A stretch of DNA of 64,000 bases from Jiangella gansuensis DSM 44835. Its GTDB lineage: Bacteria > Actinomycetota > Actinomycetes > Jiangellales > Jiangellaceae. The first letter of the stretch is position 1. Every line of letters starts with the position of its first letter. The DNA lies in NCBI RefSeq assembly GCF_000515395.1, contig NZ_KI911782.1, forward strand, positions 1,903,212-1,967,211, read 5' to 3'. Made by a program: the position numbers and the translations under genes. The notes beneath the pieces are model-generated. The model did not search any database, was not told where the DNA came from, and saw only the letters and a list, made by a program, of their open reading frames with translations. This document shows, piece after piece, positions 447-44,013 of the stretch.

Positions 447-3400
447 ATGGGCATCGACCTCACTCCAACCCACGATCCGGCTGCGGAGTGTTGCGGCGGC
501 GCGTCGTGCGATCCCGGCGGGCTGAGCCGGCGGGCGTTCATCGCGCTCTCCGCCGTCGGTGCGGCCACCGGCGGTGCGGCCCTCGGGCTCTGGCCGGCCG
601 GTGCCGGCCGGGCGGCCGCCGCCATGCCGCACACGCGCTCCGTCCCCACCGCCGGCCTGGACCGGCGCTGGCTGGACAGCATCGGCGCCCGCGGCGCCGC
701 CACCGAGTACACCGGCGCGGCGCTGCGGCGCATCGGGATGCCGGTCGGCGGTGCCTGCGCCGGCCAGGTCTACCTCGCCGGCGACGGCCGCCCGTGGCTG
801 TGGGACGTGTTCAACGCCGACAGCTTCCGCTACGGCGGCGACGACTGGCAGGGCCTGCACTATGCCGACCCGATCGACCTGGACCCCTTCGTCACCACCG
901 GTTTCGCCGTCCGCTGGACCAGCGACGACGACGGCGCGACCCGGACCCGCTCCTTGGACAGCGACGGCTTCGCCGACGTGCGGTTCCGCGGCCGGTACCC
1001 GATCGGCCACGTCGAGCTGCGCGACGACGCGGTCCCGCTGGAAGTGGACCTGGACGCGTTCTCGCCGTTCGTGCCCACGAACGTGGCCGACTCGTCGCTC
1101 CCGGCCACGGTCTTCGAGTACACGCTGCGCAACCGCTCGGAGCGTCCCATCGAGGCGCAGATCCTGGGTCTGGCCGAGAACCCGGTCTGCGTCGACAGCC
1201 GGCGCACCCAGCCGATCCTGCTGAAGACCGGACCCACCGACGCCCACCGCGACGCCGCCGGCCTCGTCCACACGGCCGCCACCTACGACGGCCCCGAGCC
1301 GGACCGCCCGGACATCGTCTTCGAGGACTGGGAGCGCGACACCTACGCGCCGTGGACGGCGAGCGGCACCGCGTTCGGGCCCGGCCCGGTCGCCGTCGGC
1401 GAGCTGCCCGGTTACATGCTGCGCGGCGGCAGCCTCGGTGTCAGCGGCGAGCACCTCGTCACCTCCCACCACTTCCGCGACGGCGGCGACGTGTTCGAGG
1501 CCGACACCCACACCGGCCGGCTGACCAGCCCGGAGTTCACCATCGAGCGGGCCGGCATCGTGGTCCGAGTCGGCGGCGGCGCCCACGCCGGCGCGACCTG
1601 CCTCAATGTCGTCGTCGACGGTGCCGTGGTCGCCACCGCGACCGGCGCGAACGAGGAACGGCTGCGCACCTACTGGCTGGATGTCGCAGCGCACCAGGGC
1701 AGCACCGCCACCATCGAGATCGTCGACACCGTCACCGGCGCGTGGGGGCACGTCAACGTCGACCGCATCGTGTTCACCGACCGTCCCGCGCCGCGGCCGG
1801 ACGTCATCATCGAGGACTGGGAACGCACCACGTACGCCCCCTGGACGGCCTCCGGGACCGCGTTCGGGTCCGGCCCGGTCACCGAGGCGGAGGCACCGGC
1901 CTACTTCCGCCGCGAGGGAGCGTTGAACGTCACCGGGCAGCGCTTCGTCACCTCGCACAACTGGCGCGACGGCGGGCCGCCTGCCGACGACCACCAGGGC
2001 CGCCTCACCAGCCCGCCGTTCACCATCGACCGGCGCTACCTGGCGGCCAACATCGCCGGCGGCAACCGGGTGGACGCCGGTCTGAACGTCGTCGTCGACG
2101 GCGAGGTGGTCGCGCGCCTCACCGGCCACAACTCCGAGGTCATGCGCCAGAAGTCCATCGACGTCAGCGCCCATCAGGGCCGCACCGCCGTCATCGAGCT
2201 GGTCGACGAGGGCGTCGGCGGCTGGGCGCACGTCAACTGTGACCGCATCTGGCTCTCCGACGTGCCCATTGACGAGCGGCCGCTGGAGGAGCTTCCCGAC
2301 GCGGGCACGTTCGGGCTGGCGGTCTTCGACCGGCCGGATGCCACCGTCCGGCCGTCCATCGCCGACTGGTCCACGCCCGAGGCCTGGTTCGACTCCGCCG
2401 ACGGCCCGCTGGAGGTCGACGGCGGCAGCGGTGCCATCGCCGGCACCGTGAGCACCACGGTCAGCCTGCGACCCGGCGAGGCCACGACCGTCCGGTTCGG
2501 GCTGGCCTGGCACTTCCCGAAGATCGGCAGCCGCTTCGGCTACATCCAGGGCGCGGTGAACCTGCGCCGGCACTACGGCGAGGTGTACGCCGATGCCGGC
2601 GCCGTCGTCGCCGACCTGGCAGAGCGCGGTGGCGAACTCGCCGCCGCCACCCACACCTTCGCCACCACCTGGTACGACGACGCCACTCTGCCGGTGTGGT
2701 TCCTGGAACGCACCCTGATCCCGGCGTCCACCGTCGCCACCGGCACCTGCCTGCGCTTCCACGACGGCCGGTTCTACGGCTGGGAGGGCATCTACTGCTG
2801 CGACGGCACCTGCACCCACGTGTGGAACTACGCGCAGTCGATCGGGCGGCTGTTCCCGGAGCTGGAGCGCGACGCGCGGGAGCGGGTCGACTTCGGCATC
2901 GCCTTCCACGATGACACCGGTGCCATCGACTACCGCGGCGAGGCGCACCGGCGGGTGGCGCACGACGGCCAGTGCGGCAACATCCTGCGCACATACCGCG
3001 AGCACCAGATGTCCGCCGACGGCGCGTTCCTCGCCCGCATCTGGCCGCAGGTGAAGGCGGCGACGGAGTACCTGATCAGGCACGACGGCCTCGGCGACGG
3101 TGGCACTGCGGACGGCGTCATCGAGGACGAGCAGTACAACACTCTGGACGCCTCGTGGTACGGCGAGATCCCGTGGATCACCGGCCTGTACGTCGCCGCG
3201 CTGCGGGCCGCGGCGGAGATGGCCGATGACGCCGGCGACGCCGCGTTCGCCGAGCGCTGCCGAACGCTCGCCGACGCCGGCAGCGCCCACCTGGACTCCG
3301 CGCTCTGGAACGACACCTACGGCTATTACGAGCACGTGGTCGACCCGGAGCACGCCGATGCCACCAACTCCAACCGCGGCTGCCACATCGATCAGATGTT

Positions 3401-38110: not shown

Positions 38111-38959
38111 GTGGCACATCTGGTTCCCGGACGCGATCCGGCTCTGACACGACGCGTCGCGGCTGTCGTGCTCGGCGCGGCGGTCGTGCTGAGTGGTTGC
38201 TCGGCCGAGCAGCGTGACGAGTGGTCGCGGCTGGCGCTACCGGAGCCGGCCACCGACGAGGCGCCGCTGATCGGTGACCTCTGGGTAGGTGCCTGGATCG
38301 CGGCGTTCGCGGTCGGCTTCCTGGTCTGGGGGCTGATCCTGTGGGCGGTCATCGCCTACCGCAAGCGCAACGACGAACTGCCGAAGCAGACTCGCTTCAA
38401 CATCCCGATCGAGTTCCTCTACACGGTGGCGCCGTTTTTCGTGATCGCGCCATTCTTCTACTTCACGGCCGACCACCAGGACCAGATCACCGGTATCCGC
38501 GCCGAGCCCGATCTCACAGTCGACGTCGTGGGCCAGCAGTGGTCCTGGACGTTCAACTACGTCGACGAGGACGTCCACGAGATCGGCACCATCAACGAGC
38601 GCCCGACGCTGTACCTGCCGGTGGACCAGACGGTCCGGTTCAACCTTGGATCGCCGGACGTCATCCACTCGTTCTGGATCCCGTCCTTCTACATGAAGCA
38701 GGACGTCTTTCCCGGCCAACCGAATGCGTTCCAGGTGACACCCGACCGTGAGGGCACGTTCGACGGTCGGTGTGCCGAGTTCTGCGGCGTCTTCCACCAG
38801 TCGATGCTGTTCACCGTCGAGGTGGTATCCGAAGAGGAATACCAGGACCAGATGGACCAACTGCGTGACGCAGGCCAGACCGGTCTCATCGATCCGCCGA
38901 TCCGCGGCGCCTACGAAGGGGAGCCGCTCGACCCGGACAGCCCCGGGGGCGACCGGTGA
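38111..38959 (+). CDS. ctaC: Cytochrome c oxidase subunit II
   Basis: A 282-residue lipoprotein subunit of aa3-type oxidase that receives electrons from cytochrome c. The signal peptide ends in a lipobox (VVLSGC). Two TM helices follow (about 57-80 and 100-120). The cupredoxin domain has the Cu-A ligands: His in [11 protein letters not shown] and [12 protein letters not shown] with two Cys, His and Met. An aromatic electron-entry patch is present ([10 protein letters not shown]). GTG 38111 is used. The next gene overlaps by 4 bases. No subunit III or bc complex is nearby, so this looks like an accessory oxidase copy. Confidence 0.93.
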
Positions 38960-40674
38960 CCACCTTCAAGGAGCGGACCGCGCCCTCGCGCGGGCGTGTC
39001 GCCCGGCCGAAGCGCAAGGGCAACGTCGTCGTCCGGTGGATGACCTCCACCGACCACAAGGTCATCGGGTACATGTATCTGATCGCCTCGTTCGGGTTCT
39101 TCCTGTTCGGCGGCGTGCTGGCACTGTTCATCCGGGCCGAGCTGTTCTCGCCGGGTCGGCAGGTCGTCAGCGACCAGATGTACAACCAGCTGTTCACCAT
39201 GCACGGCACGATCATGCTGTTGCTGTTCGCAACGCCGTTGTTCATCGGCTTCGGCAACATCATCGTGCCGTTGCAGATCGGCGCGCCGGACGTGGCGTTC
39301 CCGCGGCTGAACATGTTCAGCTTCTATCTGTTCCTGTTCGGCGGGCTGATCGTCTGTGCCGGGTTCATCACGCCGGACGGCGCCGCCGACTTCGGCTGGA
39401 CCGCCTACGCGCCGTTGCACGACACCGTCTACAGTCCCAACGTGGGTGGCGACCTGTGGGTCGCCGGCCTGGCGATGAGCGGTTTCGGCACCATCTTCGG
39501 CGCGGTCAACTTCATCACCACCATCGTGTGCATGCGCGCGCCGGGCATCACCATGTTCCGGATGCCGATCTTCACCTGGAACATCCTGGCTACCAGCATC
39601 CTGGTGCTGATCGCGTTCCCGCTGCTGGCCGCCGCCCTGTTCGGCATGCTGGCCGACCGCACCCTCGGAGCGCACATCTACGACCCGAGCGCCGGTGGTG
39701 CGGTCCTCTGGCAACACCTCTTCTGGTTCTTCGGCCATCCAGAGGTATACATCATCGCCTTGCCCTTCTTCGGCATCATCACCGAGGTCATCCCGGTGTT
39801 CAGCCGCAAGCCGATCTTCGGCTACAAGGGCCTGGTGTTCGCCACCCTCGCGATCGTCGGTCTGTCGGTGGCGGTGTGGGCGCACCACATGTTCGCCACC
39901 GGAGCGGTGAACCTGCCGTTCTTCTCGGCCATGACCATGCTCATCGCCATTCCGACCGGGTTGAAGTTCTTCGCCTGGATCGGCACCATGTGGCGCGGCT
40001 CACTGACGTTCGAGACCCCGATGCTGTTCGCCATCGGGTTCCTGGTGACCTTCCTGTTCGGTGGCCTGACCGGCATCATCCTGGCCTCGCCGCCGCTGGA
40101 CTTCCACGTGCACGACAGCTACTTCGTCGTCGCGCACTTCCACTACGTCGTCTTCGGCACGGTCGTGTTCGCCATGTTCGCCGGCTTCTATTTCTGGTGG
40201 CCGAAGTTCACCGGGCGGATGCTGAACGAACGCATGGGCACGATCCACTTCTGGCTGCTGTTCCTCGGCTTCCACGGCACGTTCATGGTGCACCACTGGC
40301 TGGGCGTCGAGGGCTTCCCGCGGCGCTACTCCGACTACGAGCCAGATGACGGATTCACCACGCTGAACCAGTTCTCCACGGTGTTCGCGTTTCTGCTGGC
40401 GGTATCGACGCTGCCGTTCCTGTGGAACGTGTGGCAGACCCGGCTGGCTCCGAAGGTCGAGGTCGACGACCCCTGGGGCTTCACGAACTCGCTGGAGTGG
40501 GCCACGTCCTGCCCGCCGCCGCGGCACAACTTCACCTCAGTGCCACGCATCCGCAGCGAGCGTCCCGCGTTCGACCTCAAGTACCCCGAGGCCGCCGCGA
40601 CCGCCGAGGGCAAACCGGCCGACGCCGGTCCACTCACCGAGGCACTGGGTCCGCCCGACATCGAGCCGAACTGA
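38956..40674 (+). CDS. ctaD: Cytochrome c oxidase subunit I
   Basis: A 572-residue haem-copper oxidase core subunit with 12 TM helices. Key sites are intact: His of haem a in [13 protein letters not shown], the Cu-B His and cross-linked Tyr in [15 protein letters not shown], Cu-B HH in [10 protein letters not shown], and the haem a3/a His pair in [17 protein letters not shown] 38956 overlaps the subunit II stop. The K-channel is of the A1 type ([13 protein letters not shown] region). Together with subunit II it should reduce oxygen and pump protons. Confidence 0.95.
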
Positions 40675-40749: not shown

Positions 40750-40772
40750 CTTGACATTGACACAGTGACAAG
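40750..40772. promoter_or_regulatory. Candidate MerR-type operator upstream of the HEAT/MerR-HEAT pair
   Basis: A 23-bp dyad: left half CTTGACATTGA, right half CAGTGACAAG. Positions CTTG-CA-TG and CA-TG-CAAG are symmetric. TTGACA inside the left half could be a -35 element. It lies 32 bases before the ATG of the first gene and fits the long spacer-embedded dyads bound by MerR proteins. Confidence 0.55.
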
Positions 40773-40803
40773 GATTTCACTGGGGCGGAAGGAGGTGGTC
40801 GTG

Positions 40804-41481
40804 ATGGCCTTGCCGTATCAGAGCACGGACGACACTGGGTTGGTCGAGGCGCTGGGGCACCCCCAGTCGTCGGTGCGGCTGCGGGCGGCGATGTCGGCGG
40901 GCACGCGGCCCGACCCCCGGTATGTCGAGAAGCTCGTCGAGCGGTGCGGGGTCGAGCCGGACTTCTTCGTGCGCGACATGCTCACGTGGGCGCTGACCAG
41001 GCACTCGGCGTCGATCACTGTTCCCAGGCTGGTCGAGGAGTTGAGCTCGCAGCGTGCTCAGGCGCGGAGCCAGGCGCTGCACACGTTGTCCAAGATCGGC
41101 GATCGGGGAGTGTGGACGGCGATCACCCGGTCGTTGCTGTTCGACGCCGATCACGAGGTGGCCCGCAGCGCATGGCGGGCGGCTGTCGTGCTCGTGCCGG
41201 ACAAGGACAGGTCCGCCCTGGCCGAGGCGCTTTCGACGCAGCTGGGACGCGGTGACCGGCACCTGCAGCTGAGCCTGAGCCGGGCGTTGATCGCGCTCGG
41301 GGACGTGGTCCCTCCGGTTCTGGCAGCCGCGATGACGAGCTCGGTGGTCGAGGTCCGCGCGCACGCGATCGCGACCCACCGGCTGTGGCGTGACCCGGAC
41401 GCGGGCTTCGAGCTCGCGATCGAGGAAGCCAAGCGGGTGGCCGCACTGGGCCCGGACGAGGAAAGCGCTCGGTCGTGCTGA
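40804..41481 (+). CDS. HEAT-repeat protein
   Basis: A 225-residue all-helical protein made of about five HEAT/PBS-lyase-type repeats (for example GHPQSSVRLRAAMSAGT, RAQARSQALHTLSKIGDR and ADHEVARSAWRAAVVL). GGAAGGAGG precedes the ATG by nine bases; a GTG three bases upstream is an alternative. Its 3' end overlaps the MerR-HEAT gene by 7 bases, and both end in related helical repeats. A partner-binding or sensor role is plausible. No catalytic motif is seen. Confidence 0.8.
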   Translation: MALPYQSTDDTGLVEALGHPQSSVRLRAAMSAGTRPDPRYVEKLVERCGVEPDFFVRDMLTWALTRHSASITVPRLVEELSSQRAQARSQALHTLSKIGDRGVWTAITRSLLFDADHEVARSAWRAAVVLVPDKDRSALAEALSTQLGRGDRHLQLSLSRALIALGDVVPPVLAAAMTSSVVEVRAHAIATHRLWRDPDAGFELAIEEAKRVAALGPDEESARSC

Positions 41482-42476
41482 TCGGTGAGGTGGCGCGGCG
41501 CTCCGGGGTCAGCGCGCGAATGCTCCGGCACTACGACGCGCTGGGCCTGGTGCGGCCGACGGGGCGAAGCGTCGGCGGCTACCGGGAGTACTCCAGCGAG
41601 GACATCCGGCGGATATTCCACGTCGAGAGCCTGCGGTCGCTGGGACTGTCCCTGCGCGAAGTCGGGCGCGCCTTGGACGATCCCGGGTTCGACCCCTCCG
41701 GCCTCATCGACGAGCTGATGCGTCAGACGCAGGAGCGCATCATGCGTGAGAAGGAACTGCTCGCGCGACTCCGTCACATCGATGCTGCCGAACCCGCCGA
41801 CTGGGAGGAGGCGCTCGGGATCGTGGCGCTGCTCCAGGCGCTGGGTTCCGAGAGCGCCAGGGTCCGCCAGCGCGCGGCCCTGGCGTCGGTCGGCGAAGCC
41901 TCCGCGCCCGTCGAACTACTCGTCGAGGCGGCACTCGCGGAGACGGATCTCAATGTCGCCGGAGCGCTGCAATGGGCACTGAGGCAGGCGGGCAGTGACG
42001 GGTTGGCGCGGCTCGCCGCCGGCCTCAGATCCACCGATGCCGGCGTCCGCAAACGCGCCGTTGTGTTGATCGCGCAGGTACCGACCGACGACGCGACGGC
42101 AGTGCTCGCAGACGCTCTCACAGACCCCGACGTCGCGGTCCGCAGAACGGCGGCCCTGCCTCTCGGGGCACGTGGGGTCGTCGACGCCGTTCCGACGTTG
42201 ATCGACATGGTGGTCGCGGGCGCCAACGATGTCGACGCCGCGGAGGCCCTGGGCACGCTGGCGCGTCGCCGTGAACTCGCCGACCGGATCGTCACCGAGT
42301 TCGTCGCCCACCTCGCCGAGGACGGTGCCGGAACCCCGACGCGGCGACGCATCGCACAGGCGCTGGCAGACATCCCCGGAGCCGAGGCGACGCGTGTCCT
42401 CTCGGACCTGGCGCGCAGCGACGAGCCGTCAATCGCGCTGACCGCGGCCTACGTTCTCCAACAGCGCGGCGTGTGA
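41475..42476 (+). CDS. MerR-family regulator fused to HEAT repeats
   Basis: A 333-residue protein. Residues 1-70 are a MerR winged helix (LIGEVARRSGVSARMLRHYD, RSVGGYREYSSEDIRRI), followed by the dimerising coiled coil (LMRQTQERIMREKELLARL). From about 115 to the end, six to seven HEAT-type repeats replace the usual small ligand domain (RVRQRAALASVGEASAPVEL, DAGVRKRAVVLIAQVPTDD, DVAVRRTAALPLGARGV). GTG 41475 overlaps the upstream HEAT gene. No metal-binding cysteines are seen. The signal is probably a protein or a conformational input rather than a metal; that is inference. Confidence 0.88.
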   Translation: MLIGEVARRSGVSARMLRHYDALGLVRPTGRSVGGYREYSSEDIRRIFHVESLRSLGLSLREVGRALDDPGFDPSGLIDELMRQTQERIMREKELLARLRHIDAAEPADWEEALGIVALLQALGSESARVRQRAALASVGEASAPVELLVEAALAETDLNVAGALQWALRQAGSDGLARLAAGLRSTDAGVRKRAVVLIAQVPTDDATAVLADALTDPDVAVRRTAALPLGARGVVDAVPTLIDMVVAGANDVDAAEALGTLARRRELADRIVTEFVAHLAEDGAGTPTRRRIAQALADIPGAEATRVLSDLARSDEPSIALTAAYVLQQRGV

Positions 42477-42528: not shown

Positions 42529-43764
42529 TCACAGACCGGCCGTACGCCGCTTGTTGAAGAAGACCAGGCCTGATGCGAGCGCGATGAGCACGACTCCCGC
42601 GGCCGCCAGGATCAGGGTCGAGCCGCTGCCGGTGTCGGGCAGGTCACCCGTGCCGCCGGTCTCGGTGCCGGTGTCGCCGGTTTCAGTTCCCGTCTCGGTG
42701 CCGGGCGGGGAGTCGGTCGGCGTCGGGGTCTCAGTCGGCGTTGGGGTCTCGGTCGGAGTGGGGGTCTCGGTCGGAGTGGGGGTCTCGGTCCCCGTTTCCG
42801 TCCCGGTTTCGGTGCCGCTGTCGTCGCCGGTGTCCGTCCCCGTCTCGGTGCCGGTGTCGGTGCCGTTGTCGTCGCCGGTATCCGTGCCGGTTTCGGTTCC
42901 CGTCTCGGTGCCGGTGTCGTCACCGGTGTCGTCGCCGATCTCGGTTCCCGTCTCGGTGCCGGTTTCGGTGCCGGTGTCGTCTCCGGTCTCGTCGCCGTTG
43001 TCGTCGCCGGTCGGAGTGTCTGTGGGGGTGGGCTCGCAGGCGTCGTCGGTGATCTGGTTGGTGTCGAGGGTGACGGCGGCCGTTCGAGCCAGCGCTCGGC
43101 CTTGCAGGTTCGCGCCGGTGTCCATGGTGATCGATGCGGTCGCCATGATGGTGCCGATGAAGTCTGTGCCGGTGCCAAGAGTGGCGGAGCTGCCCACCTG
43201 CCAGAACACGTTGCACGGCGCCGCTCCGTTGACGAAGATGACGCTGCTGTCCGTGGCGGTGATCAGGGTGGAGTCGATCTGGAAGATGAACACCGCCCCG
43301 GGGTCGCCCTTGCCGTCGAGCGTGAGTTGCCCCGTCAGTTGGGCGGCTGAGATGCGATAGACGCCCGCGTCGAGTGAAGTGCCGCCGAGTTCGGCGGCCA
43401 GGTTCGTGAACGGCGTGCGGCCGGCAGCGTCGTTGTAGGCGGTGGTCAGGTCGTCCTTGGCCTGGAGTGCGACTGCGTCGGCCAGGTGTGTCTCACCGTG
43501 CACTTCGCCCGGCGGGAAGCCCGGAGCGGTGGTGCCGGGGTGCACGCCGAGATCCTGTTCCAGCGACGTGGGGCCGGTGTTGGTGACGGTGGAGCCGGCC
43601 AGCACGGAGAAGTCGCCCGCGGTCCCGAGGCCGACCGGAGCGTCGGCGGCATCTGCCACGCTCGTGTTGAAGAACAGCGGTGCCGTCACGAGCGCCGCAA
43701 CGCCAAGGCTCGCCAACCCTGGCCACAGTGCACGTTGGACCGGATGAGATGATGTCCTGGCCAT
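42529..43764 (-). CDS. DUF3494 ice-binding-like surface protein with LPDTG sorting signal
   Basis: A 411-residue exported protein. A signal peptide (about 1-40, ending SVADAAD) leads to a DUF3494 beta-solenoid domain (GTAGDFSVLAGSTVTNTGPT, GVYRISAAQLTGQLTLDGKG, ATLGTGTDFIGTIMATASI). This fold is known from ice-binding proteins and also general adhesins. A long Thr/Glu/Gly/Asp low-complexity stalk and four PTPTET repeats follow. The end is LPDTG, a TM helix and KRR, a complete cell-wall sorting signal. ATG 43764 is preferred over the longer frame. Ice binding cannot be claimed from sequence alone. Confidence 0.88.
   Translation of the reverse strand: MARTSSHPVQRALWPGLASLGVAALVTAPLFFNTSVADAADAPVGLGTAGDFSVLAGSTVTNTGPTSLEQDLGVHPGTTAPGFPPGEVHGETHLADAVALQAKDDLTTAYNDAAGRTPFTNLAAELGGTSLDAGVYRISAAQLTGQLTLDGKGDPGAVFIFQIDSTLITATDSSVIFVNGAAPCNVFWQVGSSATLGTGTDFIGTIMATASITMDTGANLQGRALARTAAVTLDTNQITDDACEPTPTDTPTGDDNGDETGDDTGTETGTETGTEIGDDTGDDTGTETGTETGTDTGDDNGTDTGTETGTDTGDDSGTETGTETGTETPTPTETPTPTETPTPTETPTPTDSPPGTETGTETGDTGTETGGTGDLPDTGSGSTLILAAAGVVLIALASGLVFFNKRRTAGL
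42650..43030 (-). repeat. Low-complexity coding repeat of the surface-protein stalk
   Basis: Short units encoding TGTETGTE, GDDTG and PTPTET recur many times with small variations. The DNA is therefore a degenerate 6/12/18-bp repeat prone to slippage, which would change stalk length without breaking the frame. The opposite strand is also open here, as a by-product of the repeat. Confidence 0.8.
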
Positions 43765-44013
43765 GAATTGACCCTTTCGGTTGAGATCCTCATGGGTCAC
43801 GTCTGGCCGATGAACGCCCGGGGCGCGAAGCATGTTTCGCCCTACTCAAGCATAAACTCGCGCGTGCGCGATCATTCAAAGCGATAAAGTCGAAATAGAG
43901 CGTTCAGATATCGCCCCAAACACGTACAAGAAACACAAAACGTCTACCGGTCTTTTGGCTGCGCCGGCGTTTTCCCAGCTGGCGCGCCCCTCGCCTCGTC
44001 GAACAAGCTCACG
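43765..44013. promoter_or_regulatory. A+T-richer intergenic region upstream of the surface-protein gene
   Basis: About 250 bases without a gene, with a distinctly A+T-rich part at 43850-43980. A leftward TTGAAT with TATGCT 19 bases further (about 43850-43882) may be a promoter, with a long leader before the 43764 start. No riboswitch or terminator was recognised. Confidence 0.3.

Follow-up and report, generated by a model that had tools for sequence, protein, structure and literature searches.

Textbooks present MerR regulators as switches for small molecules and metals, and the family activates transcription by distorting the DNA upon signal binding. Within it, the TipA class (TipAL/TipAS, SkgA and AlbA) has antibiotic sequestration as a class trait. 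For TipAL/TipAS, it is described that a single gene yields both the regulator and, via an internal start, a free sink, and the system is stand-alone and self-regulated (PMC7762955). For heavy-metal MerR systems, a strong palindrome in a promoter spacer of 19 or 20 bp is described as the signature (PMC1526738). Here we describe a locus in Jiangella gansuensis DSM 44835 at which a MerR regulator with seven HEAT repeats (MerR-HEAT) is encoded directly behind a second HEAT-repeat protein.

The window, i.e. the whole stretch of 64,000 nucleotides that was analysed, is part of one 5,585,780-base contig (G000). On its forward strand, the gene of the HEAT-repeat partner (225 aa) occupies positions 40804..41481 and that of MerR-HEAT (333 aa) positions 41475..42476, and the two overlap by seven bases (41475-41481) across the stop codon of the upstream gene. 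The sequence AGGAGG at 40790..40795 (+) would serve as ribosome binding site. The two products are the sole proteins above the HEAT_2 cut-off in their own genome. Upstream, 38111-40674 (+) contains two genes which we take, by eye alone, to encode cytochrome c oxidase subunits II and I, the second one stopping 76 bases before the -35 element of the pair. Downstream, 42529-43833 (-) presumably encodes an ice-binding-like (DUF3494 kind) surface protein, again recognised by eye alone, whose repeat stalk is rich in Thr, Glu and Gly and which carries an LPDTG anchor.

An earlier note on this DNA had read the regulator as a normal MerR DNA-binding head followed by six to seven HEAT repeats where a small-molecule domain would be, and the overlapping upstream gene as HEAT repeats as well. 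Profile searches and structure models bear this out. Residues 1-68 of the regulator match PF13411 (E 7.9e-15; 55.2 bits, cut-off 21.6), PF00376 is also hit (51.8 bits, cut-off 28.2), and PF13646 is matched at E 7.9e-16 (58.6 bits, gathering 27.7). The AlphaFold2 model (mean pLDDT 90.8, pTM 0.69) displays a normal head, a helix at residues 74-104 and seven HEAT helix pairs at 110-332, corresponding to HTH 41475-41684, helix 41694-41786 and HEAT region 41802-42470 (+). The 31-residue helix is predicted to be of the dimerisation type that the MerR family has after the HTH. Among solved structures, the head profile matched TipA best (2vz4, E 7e-19), and SkgA, also of the TipA class, came next. This likeness is not exclusive, as the top NCBIfam model for the head was CueR (54.5 bits, far under its cut-off of 147.4). 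The ZntR and CadR-PbrR scores were likewise far under their cut-offs, and no cysteine occurs among the residues conserved in 90% of the 66 regulators collected from the class (see below), so that a metal sensor was rejected. The TipAS effector domain PF07739 gave no Pfam match in the regulator at E 0.1; HEAT_2 is in its place, and MerR-HEAT is thus not a TipA member.

The partner matches PF13646 at E 8.9e-12 (45.6 bits, gathering 27.7), and its AlphaFold2 model (mean pLDDT 93.5, pTM 0.88) shows six helix pairs plus C-terminal helices. Pfam families other than HEAT ones were not found in it, and its sole NCBIfam match, CpcE lyase, stayed below the cut-off (15 bits vs 330). Fold and structure searches returned mostly generic HEAT/ARM scaffolds, chiefly protein binders, and no functional fold match. 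Known anti-phage defence was tried with PADLOC and rejected, the matches being limited to positions 819-944 and 818-1025 of 1972 in HEAT-ARM_XIII and to the HTH of mad1; a search for a phage link gave one weak partial HEAT match among 50,697 records.

By general HEAT geometry, the second helix of a pair is expected on the concave side. Correspondingly, we sorted the polar and aromatic residues that are at least 95% conserved over the 66 loci by their place in the model. In the partner, they account for 19 of 81 positions in second helices, 6 of 80 in first helices and 6 of 64 in loops; in the MerR sensor the counts are 9 of 85, 1 of 83 and 2 of 57, respectively. Many of these conserved residues are basic, and those on the concave helices of both proteins would suit a binding surface. 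Structure alignments, which took in 52 of 76 partners and 41 of 66 regulators, left R25, E51, F54, R57, W62, Q90, H93, K97, D114, W124, R125, R149, H187 and T191 as polar or aromatic residues invariant in all 52 partners.

Partner and sensor also resemble each other. BLASTP aligned them with 37% identity over 112 aa (E 2e-8), hhalign gave a probability of 96.9% (E 1.9e-10), and the pattern E....V...L.WAL is common to residues 51-64 of the partner and 156-169 of the sensor. In a control with the partner profile and Z fixed at 3000, the sensor segment was recovered at E 6.6e-9, while none of 200 shuffles and no frame of the other HEAT-like loci in the own genome passed; the full-length MerR entry was likewise stopped by the filters of HMMER. 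Designed alphaRep proteins fitted the partner profile at least equally well, so that the similarity may reflect only general HEAT likeness, and querying the own genome with the partner sequence on its own did not bring up MerR-HEAT. Moreover, H93 and W124 of the partner are not kept in the sensor in the hhalign alignment, which leaves a shared ligand uncertain.

At a threshold of E 1e-30, which selects close relatives only, MerR-HEAT was found in 66 of 393 genomes of the class, with one copy each and in eight families; within its own genus it is patchy (6/12 genomes). In keeping with the earlier note's reading of the two genes as a pair, the regulator was never seen without its partner, which lies directly upstream on the same strand in 66/66 loci and likewise in 80/80 named loci, the 80 best among 584 relatives. 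The named loci belong to, among others, Streptomyces, Actinomadura, Microbispora, Micromonospora, Nonomuraea and Jiangella, and nine of them repeat members of the 66, their MerR sequences being identical. Across loci, the genes of the pair overlap or are closely spaced. Plasmid records contained the MerR gene in 20 cases and the partner in 20, side by side in the 15 MerR records listed, which, where annotated, name the MerR gene 'HEAT repeat domain-containing protein' or 'MerR family transcriptional regulator'. In the regulator tree, the families are intermixed (16 changes vs a minimum of 7), and the starred branches force at least four changes for family f19. Horizontal movement of the pair is therefore likely. 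Neighbours that travel with it were not found: the largest cluster, presumably the general SDR family, was present at 14 of 146 loci, crude gene calling being able to miss neighbours, and the pair thus has no other obvious output. Relatives outside the class were also sought in 246 genomes of the phylum at E 1e-25. Nine of the 14 matches were full-length and belonged to members of the class; the remaining five, all from family f58, which lies outside it, covered the head only (query 3-104 to 3-121) and were rejected.

The start of the HEAT gene varies among the loci. In 16 of them (L042, L044-L047, L050-L053, L056, L058-L061, L069 and L104), ATC stands where relatives have ATG, 7-8 bases after GGAGG. 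All of these fall inside one 21-locus clade that also contains other start types, and none has an in-frame ATG, GTG or TTG within 18 bases after GGAGG. A GTG overlaps the GGAGG in frame in 15 of the ATC loci and out of frame in L044, which makes an AUC start codon a real candidate; the alternative to AUC in most ATC loci is a GTG further downstream. The tree labelling took 17 loci as ATC, 16 of which are supported; the 17th, L066, has an ATG two codons on.

In front of the pair, we recognised a promoter with the -35 element TTGACA at 40751..40756 (+; TTGACC in most relatives) and the -10 element TTCACT (TTnAnT) at 40776..40781 (+), separated by a 19-bp spacer (40757-40775, +). Over the 66 loci, the conserved columns of the -35 element are T66 T66 G62 A65 C66, and those of the -10 element are first T 65/66, A 61/66 and last T 66/66. 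The spacer is overlapped by a putative operator, a 21-bp palindrome at 40754..40774 (+; centre 40764) with the consensus ACCTTGnCACnGTGnCAAGGT. The earlier note had placed a 23-bp dyad at 40750-40772. That a dyad precedes the pair was upheld by its conservation in 66/66 and 80/80 named loci, but the proposed register was wrong: it averages 5.9 of 11 pairs over the 66 loci, whereas the register centred on 40764 reaches a mean of 8.0 of 10, the best among all centres tried. Judged by eye from the window copy by itself, neither register stands out (8/11 pairs for 40750-40772 and 7/10 for 40754-40774), so that it is the comparison of loci alone that decides between them. A palindrome within a 19- or 20-bp spacer, the feature expected of the MerR family, occurs in all 66 loci.

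A site resembling CTTGACCTTGACACGGTGACAAGGTCTTCACTG precedes the HEAT gene in 66/66 loci with 26-33 of 33 matches, this 33-base consensus having been read by eye from the same 66 loci that it then scored. In the named loci, the site is present in 80/80 with 27-33 of 33 matches; as a control, the best match anywhere in eight site-less loci with the HEAT gene only was 17-20 of 33. Promoter and dyad are thus carried by all 146 loci (66 + 80), 144 of which also have a GGAGG at most 45 bases after the site. The window has one such site where shuffled sequence leads to an expectation of 0, and in the own genome the locus of the pair is the sole match with fewer than three mismatches. A wider regulon in the own genome was considered and rejected, since the two matches with three mismatches are fewer than the five of a backward-read control. 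The own genome gave eight MerR-like matches, the MerR-HEAT gene included, so that MerR-HEAT is the presumed rather than the established binder of the operator.

Across the 393 genomes, a 31-base pattern allowing at most three mismatches found 67 sites in 63 genomes (backward control: 1 genome), comprising 60 of the pair's own, with 6 of the 66 pair genomes falling beyond the three-mismatch limit, and seven others. All seven were inspected: six have the ATG of another MerR gene 7-11 bases downstream and one precedes a broken HEAT copy. A wider regulon in other genomes was accordingly rejected as well, and the position of the six sites just before other MerR ATGs suggests that this promoter type goes with MerR self-regulation. 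The six loci (L201-L206) are other MerR genes in Actinomycetes behind a nearly identical palindromic promoter with a 19-bp spacer that ends 7-11 bases before the ATG; to judge by this layout, their mRNAs are probably leaderless and the genes self-regulated. At the seventh (L200, 5268-5463, -), a site with zero mismatches is followed by the remnant of a HEAT gene, and the same genome also has an intact pair.

Vice versa, the HEAT gene also occurs without the regulator. It was found in 76 of 393 genomes, ten of which are without MerR-HEAT. The site is partly kept in two of these ten loci (26 and 25 of 33) and absent from the other eight, where scores near the gene reach 15-19 of 33 at best. Three of the ten genomes are of only 1.3-1.4 Mb; in two of these three, Pfam named neighbours, namely DUF1801 and 3-dmu-9_3-mt genes (L191) and a DinB gene (L192). 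All ten copies keep the invariant residues of the partner. Persistence of the gene without its MerR gene in 10/76 genomes argues against a mere accessory of the regulator, and the partner probably has a job of its own. In L194 and L196, two related genomes only (both of genus g40), the HEAT gene lies directly behind that of a Clp_N protein. Clp_N proteins can be antibiotic-binding decoys, as described for mycobacterial ClpC2 and cyclomarin A (PMC10030653).

Taken together, the single site in the own genome and the position of the extra sites elsewhere, before other MerR genes or a decayed copy, suggest that the pair very probably forms a self-contained autoregulated operon with the HEAT protein as its output. 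The simplest reading of these sequence comparisons would be a MerR operon with hardly any target but itself, and in soil actinobacteria, which keep the two genes together, the pair has the look of an independent switch under its own control. We propose that a MerR-HEAT dimer sits on the palindrome in the 19-bp promoter spacer. Uptake of a signal by the HEAT domain would realign the promoter, upon which RNA polymerase would transcribe the HEAT gene together with merR. The induced HEAT protein would then be the working output, its conserved and largely basic concave groove binding the same kind of thing as the sensor, and by removing or neutralising the ligand it would shut the signal off again. 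To this mechanism as a whole, an autoregulated pair whose HEAT protein captures or neutralises a shared signal by TipAL/TipAS logic, we assign a probability of roughly 0.4. Comparison of the loci supports the operon, a cognate operator, a single target in the own genome, the presence of the partner wherever the regulator is, and the conserved grooves; activation via DNA realignment, the shared ligand and sequestration are what we infer beyond these. More specifically, the pair might stand for a new class of minimal, horizontally moving resistance or stress modules, in which a MerR sensor built as a HEAT superhelix and a free HEAT sink share the same large anionic ligand (e.g. a peptide antibiotic, a nucleic acid or an acidic protein); we hold this version only tentatively.

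The main rival is the idea of the earlier note: the same pairing could also be explained by titration between the two proteins themselves, with the partner binding the HEAT domain of the regulator and holding it inactive or active until a third protein or a cell state competes for one of the two. This is what the strict pairing (66/66 and 80/80 loci), the overlapping or closely spaced genes and the conserved concave helices of both proteins would lead one to expect, as would the correlation of pairwise distances between partner and MerR sensor (r=0.90, and a partial r of 0.78 once the DNA-binding part is accounted for). However, linked and co-inherited genes correlate in distance anyway: the dimerisation helix reaches r=0.85 with the partner, so that much of the correlation must be put down to shared descent. 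The ten genomes out of 76 that have the HEAT gene without MerR-HEAT weigh further against titration, since all of these copies share the invariant residues and the partner thus does something without the regulator. We regard it as rather unlikely.

These MerR-less copies, three of them in genomes of 1.3-1.4 Mb, would agree with a further reading, in which the groove of the partner is catalytic or binding and the protein works as an enzyme or as a factor for nucleic acids or protein quality; MerR-HEAT would then sense the damage or substrate that the partner deals with, and sequestration would play no part. Its 14 invariant polar or aromatic residues across 52 partners are likewise more than a passive scaffold should need. 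But the partner has Pfam HEAT families only, the CpcE lyase score in NCBIfam is 15 bits against 330, and structure searches returned mostly generic HEAT/ARM scaffolds, which makes a dedicated enzyme or factor less likely still. That MerR-HEAT is a global or developmental housekeeping regulator beside which the HEAT gene is incidental would agree with its presence in eight families among the genomes sampled from the class (66/393), but is highly improbable given its patchiness within the genus (6/12), its occurrence on plasmids, the one operator in the own genome and the partner in all loci examined. We retain the autoregulated pair with a captured signal as the working model.

How does this pair relate to described systems? 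Our searches of the open literature listed no study in which a MerR regulator carries HEAT repeats. Weak HTH and HEAT signatures are described for some homologues of Ccr1/SCO1842, which is said to be without conserved motifs and to adjoin a hydrolase-motif gene and a glyoxalase-motif gene (PMC11272600); MerR-HEAT was compared with it by this description only. With the HEAT scaffolds (HEAT_2, alphaRep, the PP2A scaffold and CpcE/NblB), the partner shares fold and repeat family, but it differs from them in having invariant groove residues of its own and in being genetically tied to a MerR gene. Like the metal-sensing regulators CueR, CadR and ZntR, MerR-HEAT has a MerR HTH and the palindrome in a 19-bp spacer that is described for heavy-metal MerR promoters (PMC1526738); unlike them, it has no conserved cysteine and scores far under their cut-offs. 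A very similar site lies directly before other MerR genes in Actinomycetes (L201, L202 and L203) whose products, in our own reading of the sequences, have a GyrI-like effector domain of the BmrR kind. These differ from the pair in being one gene without HEAT repeats, with the ATG 10-11 bases after the -10 element, and their mRNA is hence probably leaderless.

The TipA class offers a parallel in overall design. MerR-HEAT shares with it a head whose best matches among solved structures are of this class (2vz4, 7cla). Self-regulation, to judge by the conserved MerR-type site before the operon, and a free copy of the sensor domain made with the regulator may be further common points; the partner resembles the sensor, though designed HEAT proteins match its profile too. 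The pair departs from the class in that the TipAS domain is absent, the sensor consists of HEAT repeats and the free protein has a gene of its own upstream. Our best guess by this analogy is that the pair does with two genes, one for the sensor and one for a free sink, what TipAL/TipAS does with one; if true, HEAT repeats would be the basis of a MerR system. With seven HEAT repeats, an operator of its own and a HEAT partner at all loci examined, this MerR protein widens the family to sensors of a large, groove-like type. The pair is also a compact one-target system in which a new ligand or mechanism of resistance might be sought, in actinobacteria that include many antibiotic producers. Compared with the systems above, the DNA-binding and promoter logic of the pair is already known, whereas the type of sensor and the two-gene arrangement look new.
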